Source: Cyanobacteriota bacterium
GTDB taxonomy: Bacteria > Acidobacteriota > Vicinamibacteria > Vicinamibacterales > UBA2999
Assembly: GCA_019752015.1 (NCBI GenBank)
Contig: JAIEMQ010000051.1
Location: forward strand, 1-64,000
Direction: 5' to 3'
Length of the DNA: 64,000 bases
Shown one piece after another: positions 9,465 to 37,030 of the stretch. The notes below the pieces were generated by a model. That model did no database searches. It saw nothing but the letters and a program-made list of their open reading frames with translations, and was not told where the DNA came from. Position numbers and translations under genes: made by a program. The first letter of the stretch is position 1. The number at the start of each line of letters is the position of its first letter.

Positions 9465-11444
9465 ATGATCTTCGCCCGCGGCGCTCTGGTTCTGATGGTC
9501 ACGGCCGGCTCTATCGCGTTAGCTGCCTCCGGCAGCGAGGGCGCGCAGACCGTGGCGTCCGCCCCGCAGGATCCGAAGGCGCAGGCGCAGTTCGAGTTCA
9601 TGATGGCGCGGCGCATGGAGTCGACGGGTGACACGGCGGGCGCGCTCGCCTCGCTCGAGCGCGCGCGAAAGCTCGATCCCCAGGCCGCGGAAATTCCGGC
9701 TGAGATTGCCGGCTACTACTATCGTCAGAACCGCCCCGCCGACGCGATCACCGCCGCGGAGCAGGCGCTCAAGATCGACAAGGACAACGTCGAAGCGCAC
9801 AGCGTGCTCGCCAACGTATTTTCCGCGTGGGCCGACGGCGGCGCGCCGCCGCCCGCCGGGCGGACGCAGGCGTCGACGCGCGATGCGGCGATCGAGCACC
9901 TCACCGCGATCCAGAACACGCCGCTGATGGCGACCAATCCCAACCTGCAGATGACGCTCGGCCGGCTGCAGTTGCGCGCCGGCAAGGCCGATCTCGCCGT
10001 GCCGATTCTCGAGAAGGTCGCGGCGCAGGCGCCGTGGTCGCCGCAGCCGCTGCTGTTGCTCTATGAAGCGCAGATCTCGCAGGGCAATCTCGACGGCGCG
10101 GAGCAGTCGCTGGTGCAGGCCGCGGAGATCGAGCCGCGATACCTCGCCCAGCTCGGACAGTTCTACGAGCGCCAGGGCAAGTGGGCGGATTCGGCGGCGG
10201 CCTATGAAGAGGCGATCGCCAGTTCGCGTCAGCCGAGCCGCGATCTGCAGATTCGCTATGCCGCGGCGCTGATCAACATGGACGGCGGCGCGGTGAAGGC
10301 GCGGCCGATCCTGAACGATTTGCTGAAGACGAGCCCGAACGACACGCGGGTGCTCTATATGTTGTCGACCGCCGAGCGGTCGGCCGGCGATGAGAAAGCC
10401 GCGGAAGCGGCCGCGCGCCGGATCATGTCGATCGATCCGACCAACGTTGCCGGGCTGCGCGCGCTCGTCGCCGTGCTGTTCGAGCGGTTTGACTACAAGC
10501 AGATCGTCGATGTGGTGTCCCCGCTCCTCAAGGATCCCTCGCGCGCCAAGGGCCGCGAGTTCGAAGGCGCCGCCGTGCTCGTGCAGCTTGGTATCGCGCA
10601 GCAGCAGCTGGCGAACTGGGATGGCTCGATCGCCGCGTTCACCGCCGCGAAGTCGCTGACGCCTGAAGACCAGGAGGTCGACGCGTATCTGGTGCAGGCG
10701 CATTTGACCGCGCGGCGATTCGATCGCGCCGAGGCGATTGCGCGCGACGCGCTCGCGCGCGATCCGGATCAGCCCCGCATGGTGCGTCTGCGCGCGCAGG
10801 CGCTGCTCAAAGCGGGCAAGGGCGCCGAAGCGGCCAAGCTCCTCGAGGACGGCGTCGCCAAGAATCCCGAGAGCCGCGAGTTCGTCGTCGGCCTCGCCGA
10901 TCTCTATGCCGATCAGAAGCGCACCGATGACGCGCTGCGGCTGCTCGAGCGCGCGCGCAAGACGTTCGGCGACGACCAGACGCTGACGATGCGCGTGGCG
11001 ACTGTGTATGAAGGCGGCGGCCGCCTCGCCGAGGCGGAGAAGGAGCTGCGCCGGCTGATGGCCGACGATCCGCTCAACGCGGATGCGATGAACTCGCTCA
11101 GCTACATGCTCGCGGAACACAACGAGCGGTTGCCGGAAGCCGTCGATCTCGCGCAGCGCGCGCTGAAGGTCGAGCCGGGCAACCCCGCGTATCTCGATAC
11201 GCTCGGCTGGGCGCTGTTCAAGCAGGGCAAGGTCGAAGAAGCCGCCGATCCGCTCGGCAAAGCCGCCGCAATCCTCGCCGGCAACTCGGTGATCCAGGAT
11301 CATCACGGCGACGTGCTCGCGAAACGCGGCCGCACCGCCGAGGCGATCGCCGCCTGGCAGCGCGCCCTCGCCGGCGACGGCGAGACGATCGATCGCGCGG
11401 CCATTCAGAAGAAGATCGCGGCGGCTAAGGCGAAGAGCAAATAA
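9465..11444 (+). CDS. Exported TPR-repeat protein
   Basis: A signal peptide (residues 1-27, ending SEGAQ) precedes about 630 residues made almost wholly of tetratricopeptide repeats, with recurrent patterns such as A-x-ALE-x-A-x-K-x-x-P and a final YLDTLGWALFKQGK. It is likely a periplasmic or outer-membrane-facing scaffold. Its position immediately before the lolB-like gene and ispE matches Pseudomonas, where a large TPR protein precedes lolB; a role in envelope biogenesis is inferred. A TATGAT box lies six bases before the ATG and no Shine-Dalgarno is visible. Confidence 0.85.
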   Translation: MIFARGALVLMVTAGSIALAASGSEGAQTVASAPQDPKAQAQFEFMMARRMESTGDTAGALASLERARKLDPQAAEIPAEIAGYYYRQNRPADAITAAEQALKIDKDNVEAHSVLANVFSAWADGGAPPPAGRTQASTRDAAIEHLTAIQNTPLMATNPNLQMTLGRLQLRAGKADLAVPILEKVAAQAPWSPQPLLLLYEAQISQGNLDGAEQSLVQAAEIEPRYLAQLGQFYERQGKWADSAAAYEEAIASSRQPSRDLQIRYAAALINMDGGAVKARPILNDLLKTSPNDTRVLYMLSTAERSAGDEKAAEAAARRIMSIDPTNVAGLRALVAVLFERFDYKQIVDVVSPLLKDPSRAKGREFEGAAVLVQLGIAQQQLANWDGSIAAFTAAKSLTPEDQEVDAYLVQAHLTARRFDRAEAIARDALARDPDQPRMVRLRAQALLKAGKGAEAAKLLEDGVAKNPESREFVVGLADLYADQKRTDDALRLLERARKTFGDDQTLTMRVATVYEGGGRLAEAEKELRRLMADDPLNADAMNSLSYMLAEHNERLPEAVDLAQRALKVEPGNPAYLDTLGWALFKQGKVEEAADPLGKAAAILAGNSVIQDHHGDVLAKRGRTAEAIAAWQRALAGDGETIDRAAIQKKIAAAKAKSK

Positions 11445-11510
11445 CAAAGAACGAAAAACAAAACGTGACTCGACTTTTCGTTCTTTGTTTTTTGTTCTTT
11501 GTTCTTTCCG
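11443..11510. repeat. Period-7 A/T inverted repeat between the TPR gene and lolB
   Basis: The left arm at 11443-11457 (AACAAAGAACGAAAA) and the right arm at 11475-11489 are perfect 15-bp inverted repeats with a 17-base loop. The right side continues as TTTTTTG/TTCTTTG heptamers to about 11505. The left arm includes the TPR stop codon and the right arm lies inside the next coding region. As RNA it would form a hairpin followed by a U-rich tract, so it may attenuate transcription. Confidence 0.85.
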
Positions 11511-12280
11511 CGTGTGCCGCGAAAACTCCAGCGAGACCTGTTGGCGCGCCGACACCTGATCCAACCGCCGCTGATGCATTCGCAACCGCGACCGCATCCT
11601 GCAAGGGCTTTCGATCGATCGAAGGTGAGCTGGCGCTCTCCGGGCGCGCCGGCGGCGAGCGCGTGCGCGGGCGCATCATCACGGCACTCGAATCAGGCGG
11701 CCTCGTGCGCCTCGAAGCGGTCGCGCCGTTCGGCGCGCCGTTCTTCGTCCTCGCCGGGCGCAACGAGCGCGCCACGCTGGTGTTGCCGCGCGAGCATCGC
11801 GTCCTGAAAGACACCGGCGTGCGCGACGTGCTCGAGCGCATCACCGGGCTCGCGCTCGGCGCCGATGATCTGCGGCTGATCCTGTCGGGATGCCTGATCG
11901 ACAAGGCCACGCCTTCCGACGGACGACAGTGGGGCAGCAGTTGGAAAGCGGTGACGATCGGACCCGATCGCGTCGCGTATCTACGCGTGCAGAACGGTCA
12001 GCCGGTGCTCACCGCCGCCGGCTATGGACGATGGCACGTGGATTACTCGGCGCACGCCGGCGGCTTCCCGCGCGTCGTGCGCGTCCGCAGCAGCCTTGTC
12101 CCCCGTAGCCTGGGCGACGGGGGAGGCGACGCCGCCATCGACATCACCGCGCGCATCGAGCAGATCCAGGTGAACACCCAGATCAATCCGCGCGCGTGGG
12201 ATGTTGAGATACCATCTGACGCCGAGCCGATGACGTTGGACGAACTGCGCTCGATTGCTCCTCTGGCAGAGAAGAAGTGA
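11465..12280 (+). CDS. lolB: LolB-like outer-membrane lipoprotein
   Basis: Signal peptide MTRLFVLCFLFFVLSAC with lipobox LSAC (Cys17). The mature part has a LolB/DUF4292-like start (CKGFRSIEGELALSG, RGRIITALESGG, VRLEAVAPFGAPFF), a half-barrel expected to receive lipoproteins from LolA. The name leans on synteny: TPR-lolB-ispE-tRNA-prs-rplY-pth is the Proteobacterial order. Sequence similarity is weak, so 'outer-membrane lipoprotein-sorting type' is the safe claim. The GTG start and the hydrophobic signal core lie inside a T-rich heptamer repeat. Confidence 0.65.
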   Translation: MTRLFVLCFLFFVLSACAAKTPARPVGAPTPDPTAADAFATATASCKGFRSIEGELALSGRAGGERVRGRIITALESGGLVRLEAVAPFGAPFFVLAGRNERATLVLPREHRVLKDTGVRDVLERITGLALGADDLRLILSGCLIDKATPSDGRQWGSSWKAVTIGPDRVAYLRVQNGQPVLTAAGYGRWHVDYSAHAGGFPRVVRVRSSLVPRSLGDGGGDAAIDITARIEQIQVNTQINPRAWDVEIPSDAEPMTLDELRSIAPLAEKK

Positions 12281-13278: not shown

Positions 13279-13289
13279 GTACTTGCGAA

Positions 13290-13363
13290 GTGAAAAGTAA
13301 AAACGAAGAAGGAAAAACAGGAACGGGACTTTTTCGCTTTTCCTTTTAACTTTTTCCTTTTTT
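13290..13363. repeat. Period-7 A-rich/T-rich inverted repeat abutting prs
   Basis: The stretch splits into heptamers: AAGTGAA, AAGTAAA, AACGAAG, AAGGAAA, then a turn, then TTTTTCG, CTTTTCC, TTTTAAC, TTTTTCC, ending directly at the prs ATG. The arms are imperfectly complementary. It may terminate tRNA-Gln transcription; it also replaces any Shine-Dalgarno in front of prs. Three of its words recur at 36998-37018. Confidence 0.8.
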
Positions 13364-14317
13364 ATGCGACCAACCGGTTTCGGAGAACTGAAAGTCTTTT
13401 CAGGCAGCGCTCATCCGCAGCTCGCGGCTGAGATTGCCGAGTTCCTGGGCGTGGAGCCCGGCCAGGCCCGCCTGCGCCGTTTTCCCGACACCGAGGTCTC
13501 GTTCCAGATCGACGAAAACATCCGCGGCACCGACGTCTTCATCGTCCAGCCGACGTGCGCGCCGGTCGATCCGCACCTGATGGAGCTGATGATCATGACG
13601 GACGCGTTCCGTCGATCGTCCGCGGCTCGCATCACCGCGGTGATTCCGTACTACGGCTACGCGCGCCAGGATCGCAAGGACAAGCCGCGCGTGCCGATCT
13701 CCGCGAAGCTCGTCGCCAACGTCCTCGTCGCGGCCGGCGTCAATCGCGTCTTGACGATGGATCTCCACAAGGCGCAGATCCAGGGCTTCTTCGATCTGCC
13801 GGTGGATCACTTGTTCGCCGCGCCGGTCGTCATCGATTACCTGTCGCGGCAGTCGTACGAGAAGTTGACGATCGTCGCGCCGGATGCCGGCGGCGCCGAG
13901 CGCGCCCGCGCCTATGCCAAGCGCCTCGATGCGGAACTCGCCGTCATCGACAAACGCCGTAGCGAAGACGGCACCGCCGAAGTCATGAACGTGATCGGTG
14001 AAGTCGCCGGCCGCACCTGCGTAATCGCCGACGACATCATCGACACCGCCGGCACCATTCAGAAGGCGGCGCAGGCGTTGAAGGACAACGGCGCCGAGCG
14101 GGTGCTGGCCTGCGCCATTCACGGCGTGCTGTCGGGCCCGGCGATCGATCGCATCGAGAAGTCGCCGATCGACAAGTTGATCATCACCAACACGATTCCG
14201 CTGACCGCGGAGCGTGCGAAGTGCCAGAAGATTGTTGTGTTGTCGGTCGCCCGCCTGTTGGGCCAGGCCATCCGCAGCATCCACGAGGAAACCTCGGTTT
14301 CGTCATTGTTCGTTTAA
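13364..14317 (+). CDS. prs: Ribose-phosphate pyrophosphokinase
   Basis: Makes PRPP from ribose 5-phosphate and ATP. The protein begins GELKVFSGSAHPQLAAEIA and carries the flexible-loop region around YARQDRKDKPRVPISAK, the metal-binding DLHKAQIQGFFD segment and the PRPP loop VIADDIIDTAGTI. 317 residues, standard class I length. The ATG at 13364 fits the family but has no Shine-Dalgarno: a T-rich heptamer repeat ends immediately before it. Confidence 0.97.
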   Translation: MRPTGFGELKVFSGSAHPQLAAEIAEFLGVEPGQARLRRFPDTEVSFQIDENIRGTDVFIVQPTCAPVDPHLMELMIMTDAFRRSSAARITAVIPYYGYARQDRKDKPRVPISAKLVANVLVAAGVNRVLTMDLHKAQIQGFFDLPVDHLFAAPVVIDYLSRQSYEKLTIVAPDAGGAERARAYAKRLDAELAVIDKRRSEDGTAEVMNVIGEVAGRTCVIADDIIDTAGTIQKAAQALKDNGAERVLACAIHGVLSGPAIDRIEKSPIDKLIITNTIPLTAERAKCQKIVVLSVARLLGQAIRSIHEETSVSSLFV

Positions 14318-17074: not shown

Positions 17075-17085
17075 CTAGGGCGAAT

Positions 17086-17120
17086 AACGAAGAACGAAAA
17101 ACGAAGAACGAAAAACGAAA
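17086..17120. repeat. Heptamer repeat AACGAA(G/A) x5
   Basis: Five 7-bp units, alternating AACGAAG and AACGAAA, stand 11 bases after the rplI stop and before the terminator hairpin. They share words with the repeats at 11443 and 36971. Confidence 0.9.
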
Positions 17121-17140
17121 ACGACGGAAAAAAAATTCGG

Positions 17141-35802: not shown

Positions 35803-36966
35803 ATGAACGTCGCCGCCATTATCGCCGCAGGCGGCCGCGGCGCGCGCCTCGGCGCCGATCGGCCCAAACAATTCCTCGAGATCGGCGGCCGCTCGATTCT
35901 GGAGCTGAGTGTCGCCGCACTGGCGGCCAGCGATCGTATCAAGGACATCGTCGTCGCCCTGCCCCAGGAGCACGTGGATGCAGGCGGCAAAGCGCTGCGC
36001 GCGGCGATTGGCAGGCCGATCGTGGTAGTGGCGGGCGGCGACCGGCGGCAGGACTCGGTTGCGAATGCCTTTGCCAAAACGGCGAAGGGCTCCGACATCA
36101 TCCTGATTCACGACGCGGCGCGGCCTTTCGTCACACGTGAAGTCATCGACCGCGCGATCGACGGCGCGAAGCAGCACGGTGCGGCGATTGCCGCCGTCGG
36201 TGTGCGCGATACCGTGAAACAAACCGGCGATGCGTCCGCGGGCGGCTCACGCCTGATCCGTGGGACCATTCCGCGCGATTCGGTGTTCCTCGCTCAGACG
36301 CCGCAAGCCTTTCGCCGCGACGTCCTCGCGCGCGCGCTCGATGAGGGCAAGGACATCGATGCCACCGATGAGGCCATGCTCGTCGAGCGTCTCGGCCTGC
36401 CGGTCCGGGTGGTCGAAGGCGATGCAAGAAATATCAAGATCACGACGGCTGATGATTTGGCGGCGGCTAAAGCCGCCGCCCTCCGAACGTCAATGATCCG
36501 AATTGGAAACGGCTACGACCTTCATCGACTCGTGGCGGGCCGCCCGCTGATTCTTGCCGGCGTCACGATTCCGTTCGAGCTCGGCCTCGACGGACATTCC
36601 GATGCCGACATCGTCTGTCACGCGGTGACCGATGCGATTCTTGGCGCGGCCGGCGCCGGCGACATCGGACGCATGTTTCCCGACACCGATCCGAAGTGGA
36701 AAGGCGCGAACAGCATCGAGCTGTTGAAGGGCGCGGTCGAAAGGATCCGCGAGGGTGGCTACGCGGTGTCGAACGTGGACGTGACGGTGATTGCGCAGAA
36801 GCCGAAGCTGCTGCCGTATCTCGATCAGATGCGCGGGAATCTCGCCGCGGCGTTAGGCGTGGACGTGGCCGCGGTCAGCGTGAAGGGCAAAACCAACGAA
36901 GGCGTGGAAAGCATGGGTCGTAGTGAATCCATGGCTTGCCACGCCGTCGCCCTGATCGGAAGTTAA
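35803..36966 (+). CDS. ispDF: Bifunctional IspD-IspF (MEP cytidylyltransferase / MECDP synthase)
   Basis: Residues 1-~222 are IspD (AAIIAAGGRGARLGADRPKQF, HDAARPFV, DEAMLVERLG); residues ~232-387 are IspF (IGNGYDLHRL with metal Asp/His, DGHSDADIVCHAVTDAI, FPDTDPKWKGA, KTNEGVESMGR). They catalyse the third and fifth steps of the MEP pathway on either side of IspE (12.3 kb). The linker LAAAKAAALRTSM is encoded by a 22-bp palindrome of the same family as intergenic hairpins elsewhere in the window. Confidence 0.96.
   Translation: MNVAAIIAAGGRGARLGADRPKQFLEIGGRSILELSVAALAASDRIKDIVVALPQEHVDAGGKALRAAIGRPIVVVAGGDRRQDSVANAFAKTAKGSDIILIHDAARPFVTREVIDRAIDGAKQHGAAIAAVGVRDTVKQTGDASAGGSRLIRGTIPRDSVFLAQTPQAFRRDVLARALDEGKDIDATDEAMLVERLGLPVRVVEGDARNIKITTADDLAAAKAAALRTSMIRIGNGYDLHRLVAGRPLILAGVTIPFELGLDGHSDADIVCHAVTDAILGAAGAGDIGRMFPDTDPKWKGANSIELLKGAVERIREGGYAVSNVDVTVIAQKPKLLPYLDQMRGNLAAALGVDVAAVSVKGKTNEGVESMGRSESMACHAVALIGS
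36459..36480. repeat. 22-bp palindrome at the IspD/IspF fusion joint
   Basis: GGCGGCGGCT-AA-AGCCGCCGCC, a perfect 10-bp stem with a two-base centre. It belongs with 18598-18619 and 47090-47109, which are intergenic. Here it is read as the linker between two enzyme domains. Confidence 0.85.
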
Positions 36967-36970
36967 AGGT

Positions 36971-37030
36971 GAAAAGGAAAAACGAAAAACGAAAACAGTT
37001 TTTCCTTTTTCGTTTTAACTTTCTACTTTA
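36971..37030. terminator. Period-7 inverted repeat, candidate bidirectional terminator
   Basis: Heptamers GAAAAGG, AAAAACG, AAAAACG, AAAACAG then TTTTTCC, TTTTTCG, TTTTAAC, TTTCTAC lie between convergent ispDF and the next gene. The arms pair over roughly 25 bases with mismatches and both ends give a U-rich transcript. Confidence 0.65.

Follow-up and report, generated by a model that had tools for sequence, protein, structure and literature searches.

Heptamer repeats of a gene-junction hairpin are read as the probable hydrophobic core of a lipoprotein signal in a LolB-like gene

The junction between a gene for a TPR-repeat protein and a gene for a LolB-like protein raises the question of how a repeat hairpin and a protein export signal come to be written in the same DNA. 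It lies in a window of 64,000 nucleotides, i.e., the whole stretch of DNA that was analysed, from a soil-type, Acidobacteriota-like genome. A preliminary description had proposed that an intergenic repeat became an essential export signal at this place. The features of the junction, together with two further hairpins of the window, are as follows.

9465-11444, + strand: gene for a TPR-repeat protein of 659 aa (ORF list; Pfam TPR families)
11433-11457, + strand: left, purine-rich hairpin arm (perfect portion 11443-11457)
11458-11474, + strand: hairpin loop, with the GTG start (11465-11467) and the n-region MTR inside
11465-12280, + strand: gene for a LolB-like putative outer-membrane lipoprotein of 271 aa (homology, fold match)
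11465-11512, + strand: predicted lipoprotein signal peptide MTRLFVLCFLFFVLSA, followed by the lipobox Cys codon (11513-11515)
11475-11507, + strand: right, pyrimidine-rich arm of tandem TTCTTTG/TTTTTTG, translated as FVLCFLFFVL (perfect portion 11475-11489)
13288-13352, + strand: second heptamer-type hairpin, untranslated; its T-rich arm (13331-13365) ends right at the ATG of prs, the product of which is cytosolic
36960-37028, + strand: third double-armed hairpin, of the same polarity

Results

The perfect 15-bp inverted repeat noted earlier at the end of the TPR gene was confirmed (11443-11457 AACAAAGAACGAAAA and 11475-11489 TTTTCGTTCTTTGTT, with a 17-nt spacer), and arms extended to 25 nt (11433-11457 and 11475-11499) are complementary at 92%. 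Inside the right arm, a 14-nt direct repeat is present (TTTTCGTTCTTTGT at 11475, TTTTTGTTCTTTGT at 11489). RNA folding of positions 11425-11530 yielded -37.3 kcal/mol (z -4.92 vs dinucleotide shuffles), a value reached by 0 of 200 dinucleotide-shuffled sequences. The TPR stop codon (TAA, 11442-11444) is located inside the left arm; the repeat includes the gap between the genes but also covers both gene ends, and is therefore not purely intergenic. The right arm lies in frame within the ORF 11465-12280, and the hydrophobic core of MTRLFVLCFLFFVLSAC is indeed read from the T-rich heptamers. The idea that this DNA acts both as hairpin and as coding sequence thus stands for its coding side, whereas the hairpin function is a folding prediction.

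The AlphaFold2 model of the LolB-like protein (mean pLDDT 86.8) has the LolB structures 9tpm (E 2e-8) and 1iwm (E 5e-8) as its top Foldseek matches, with LolA chains next, and the predicted fold is the LolB/LolA beta-barrel. The label 'LolB-like' is justified, since LolB structures are the best matches of this fold, and the name was taken no further because no curated family model matches the protein (none in Pfam at E 0.001, none in NCBIfam at E 1). A homologue is encoded in 145 of the 162 genomes of the order. The predicted signal peptide ends in the lipobox LSAC, with Cys17 invariant in 30 homologues, and the protein is probably exported and lipidated. That its export signal is essential may be assumed by analogy with LolB of other bacteria.

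The GTG at 11465, 16 residues before the lipobox Cys, is the sole usable start of the gene; our own simple gene caller placed it too far downstream. A conserved downstream start with its own signal peptide was looked for, and the only in-frame candidate, a TTG seven residues before the Cys, is too short. It could still be argued that the signal is untranslated or the repeat misassembled, as the GTG has no clear Shine-Dalgarno sequence and the assembly is a draft; however, the lipobox Cys is invariant, there is a single usable start and hairpin-coded signals recur in independent genomes (see below), which makes a wrong start or an assembly error very unlikely.

Eight further genomes of the genus were compared, and the lolB locus is present in seven of them. 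All seven carry an ordinary lipoprotein signal, mostly MSRLFAALATALALTAC-like, without the heptamer repeat and with a core written in GC-rich codons; their TPR and lolB genes overlap or abut, and the hairpin is absent. The repeat is thus specific to the studied lineage, and the core peptide it encodes is not conserved in the repeat-free relatives. The signal starts 16 residues before the same Cys in G003 and G005, 15 in G006 and G008 and 17 in G001, in ordinary codons and with no repeat, and is longer in two of the seven sisters (G002 and G004). The distance from the TPR stop to the Cys is 71 nt in the studied genome vs 47 nt in G003, G005, G006 and G008. Comparison of the stop-Cys and start-Cys distances indicates that ~24 nt were added as the left arm and that the right arm took the place of the core with no net length change. 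As the seven repeat-free sisters already possess an ordinary signal, similar in length, with a like n-region and the same lipobox, the arm would not have created a signal but overwritten the core of one already there, and the earlier notion that the repeat became the export signal has to be corrected accordingly. The exact ancestor of the locus is uncertain, because in the closest sister, G004, the n-region is longer and holds other palindromes. These are short and GC-rich (GTCCGCCTCCAGGCGGAC, CCCACCGCGTGGTGG), are situated in the elongated n-region at the lolB 5' end and are perhaps another kind of repeat intrusion.

Copies of the repeat family are scattered through the genome: the 73-bp element from the lolB junction matches tens of genomic sites, many of them full-length. 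In 1.237 Mb, corresponding to 21% of the studied genome (a draft assembly of 82 contigs), we identified 141 period-7 arrays vs two after 5-mer block shuffling. The commonest heptamer families are AGCCGGG (21), AAGCCCC (15), AAGGCAG (14) and AAAGAAC (12), beside others. Stop codons are touched by 83 of the 141 arrays, at an expectation of 7.3 for random placement. Clear inverted repeats number 28; the purine arm comes first in 27 of them, whichever strand is read. As with the hairpin before prs in the window, the T-rich arm C11:19896-19946 ends at the ATG of a gene, in this case a putative fabZ.

Several other repeat features were observed. Positions 17075-17128 of the window hold an A-rich heptamer array immediately 5' of a GC-rich terminator-like hairpin, past a stop codon near 17075. 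Period-8 arrays form a second class (e.g., CTGTTGAT/ATCAACAG and AAGACCTC; C2:121101-121177 and C2:142172-142282; loci L068-L087 across the sampled contigs); those that do not overlap a period-7 array amount to 67 in 1.24 Mb, 35 of which touch a stop codon. Arrays of CCCCAAG are translated into proline-rich linkers that directly follow signal peptides, APKPQVPSPKPQAPSPKP being one example (C2:170632-170708, C11:14194-14265, C9:121799-121848 and C9:87943-87982). The genome has about 12 Y1_Tnp (REP-associated tyrosine transposase) genes. Mobilisation of the REP/RAYT type was considered and rejected, as only two of the 10 inspected Y1_Tnp neighbourhoods contained a heptamer array, a single one in both cases, which does not exceed the chance level.

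The seven residues that a heptamer array encodes do not depend on the reading frame; for the AAAGAAC family they are KEQRTKN in the left arm and VLCSLFF in the right one. When the 28 hairpins were read on both strands, 66 of the 168 frames gave a basic stretch with a hydrophobic core behind it, compared with 2/84 reversed, 3/84 shuffled and 1/84 random control frames. Read-through of such a hairpin tends towards this arrangement because the polarity runs from purine to pyrimidine and the heptamers are frame-independent. Given the frame pattern, purine-to-pyrimidine hairpins would be pre-adapted as signal peptides.

Translated arms also account for signals in other genes of the same genome, namely those of a DUF4159 protein (C2:152366-153196; MKRLLSLFVLCSLFFSVAEAQ, vs MTRVATALVLAILLAASLAEAQ in the G001 orthologue), a beta-lactamase-family protein (C16:55412-56335), an M14 peptidase (C16:52773-55415), a lipoprotein with metallo-beta-lactamase fold (L044) and others; an unknown secreted protein (C9:81583-82569) has a repeat-coded core. 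Orthologues from the genus were read for the DUF4159, the beta-lactamase-family and the unknown secreted protein. Start and cleavage region agree with those of the orthologues, lengths are mostly a few residues apart and the sister cores are ordinary; the three genes show the same in-place replacement of the core as lolB. Genome-wide, a crude signal predictor placed eight signal-like h-regions on arrays, vs 2.4 expected under random shift (8 reached in 5/1000 shifts) and 4.0 when the offset to gene starts was kept (44/1000). As the excess is only modest, tolerance of the arrays is favoured over an active role.

This modest enrichment, and the T at the second position of hydrophobic codons, would also suit a convergence by composition, in which T-rich codons yield hydrophobic residues and the likeness to a repeat is chance. 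However, the inverted repeat is perfect over 15 bp, the 7-nt periodicity stands in a genome of 64% GC, the 73-bp element recurs at tens of other sites, sisters use GC-rich codons at the same place and replacements recur in other genes. We therefore hold this convergence to be extremely improbable.

Across the order (~115 lolB loci), largely the same loci rank highest for period 7 and for inverted repeats. The studied genome, G018, G033, G022 and G067 head both lists, and G021 and G016 stand high on period 7. The repeat unit varies: G018/G033 and G022 have GTTGGGA, G021/G016 a TTGGGAT-like heptamer and G067 GCCTTTT. Translation runs through both arms in G018, G033 and G067, where the core follows a polar or basic n-region (e.g., MKAGGTRQKATASGWLAAFCLFPFAFCLFAC), and in G022 the ATG is in the hairpin loop. 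On the tree, hairpin-coded lolB signals fall at about five positions separated by repeat-free sisters, and they appear to have arisen independently in as many lineages, the heptamers being different. Two further loci, L140 (G088) and L099 (G079), read by eye, have hairpins of other periods (CACAAAGG/CCTTTGTG-like) whose right arm likewise forms the lolB signal; in G079 an ATG is in the loop. The view of lolB as a special hotspot was dismissed, since hairpin-coded signals in ~7-9 of 115 lolB loci, vs about 8 of 339 signal-like genes in the sampled part of the studied genome, are at most a mild excess.

Discussion

In our best explanation, which we consider quite probable, a member of the dispersed heptamer inverted repeats overwrote the core of an existing LolB signal, was tolerated and now serves as its h-region. 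Once this lineage had separated from its sister species, ~24 nt of left arm would have grown between the TPR stop and the lolB start, while the complementary right arm would have overwritten the hydrophobic core at unchanged usual length and may now act as the h-region of the lipoprotein signal. The arms may have arisen by copying one from the other, e.g., by template switching, which would account for the replacement in place. The h-region of a signal accepts almost any hydrophobic sequence. Overwriting would have been tolerated because this region is permissive and the heptamer reads VLCSLFF in three frames, and it was presumably neutral or nearly so. Tolerated overwriting of a permissive segment is hence the most likely course.

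A dual use, in which the hairpin is kept for the regulation of lolB, has to be weighed against this. It could terminate or attenuate transcription behind the TPR gene, or form a start-holding loop opened by ribosomes that leave the TPR stop. The predicted RNA stem is strong with the start codon in the loop, where it apparently also lies in G022 and G079; the frequent contact of arrays with stop codons (83/141 vs 7.3 at random) points the same way, and a bidirectional terminator would have the same purine-to-pyrimidine polarity. However, the seven sister loci, with genes overlapping or abutting, do without a hairpin, the stem is mainly A-U, and the loop position is not kept, as the start precedes the left arm in G018, G033 and G067. 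Judged from the folding model, the hairpin may have a regulatory role; as the reason for its retention, we regard dual use as unlikely.

The tolerated overwriting can be compared with known systems. Dispersed tandem heptamers, mostly intergenic, are known from Xanthomonas (GGGAATC) and Nostoc (GGGGA(C/T)T) and occur close behind the upstream gene, at 28 nt on average; in Xanthomonas there are about 70 inverted pairs, and 7-11% of the repeats partly overlap ORFs (Rehm et al. 2015, PMC4692102). The likeness, as far as the sections of that paper considered here extend, lies in numerous dispersed tandem arrays mostly at or between gene ends (141, with 83 at stops, in our sample). Those sections deal with a single heptamer family in each genome, examined for G-quadruplexes, and describe no translated arm or signal peptide (PMC4692102), whereas here many families with fixed arm polarity are present and signals are read from an arm. 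A single G-rich consensus (GGGAATC / GGGGAYT) was not found, several families being present. The enterobacterial RU/ERIC are small mobile sequences in ORFs, MITE-like units of 103-168 bp (Delihas 2007, PMC2759123); these are fused to an ORF, while the 7-nt-repeat arms replace only the h-region, and do so in several genes and lineages. Borg elements contain tandem repeats making protein regions, mostly disordered, in extracellular and membrane proteins (PMC9879509). They resemble the present case in that noncoding-type tandem repeats also occur in ORFs and recur independently, but yield disordered regions instead of hydrophobic signal cores. In Rickettsia, palindromic elements are inserted in protein genes (Ogata et al. 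2000, as cited in PMC2759123). To the extent covered by that secondary account, they are likewise palindromic repeats translated within genes, but are Rickettsia-specific. We know of no heptamer arrays among them and no tie to signal peptides. Our search of open-licence papers revealed no report of recurrent in-place replacement of signal cores by heptamer arms, nor of the frame and polarity rule; both halves are known separately, and their combination was not found in this literature.

The missed start at GTG 11465 is a warning for simple gene callers. In the comparable cases, one genome against seven sisters, noncoding repeat DNA would have displaced a functional part of a protein in place. 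Frame-independent heptamers and fixed polarity offer a simple rule for why signal peptides are taken over, and with these cases the origin and turnover of export signals become testable. We suggest, tentatively and with more doubt than confidence, that purine-to-pyrimidine heptamer hairpins are latent signal peptides and a general source by which export signals at gene starts are replaced or renewed in the order, the hairpin keeping a role in expression.
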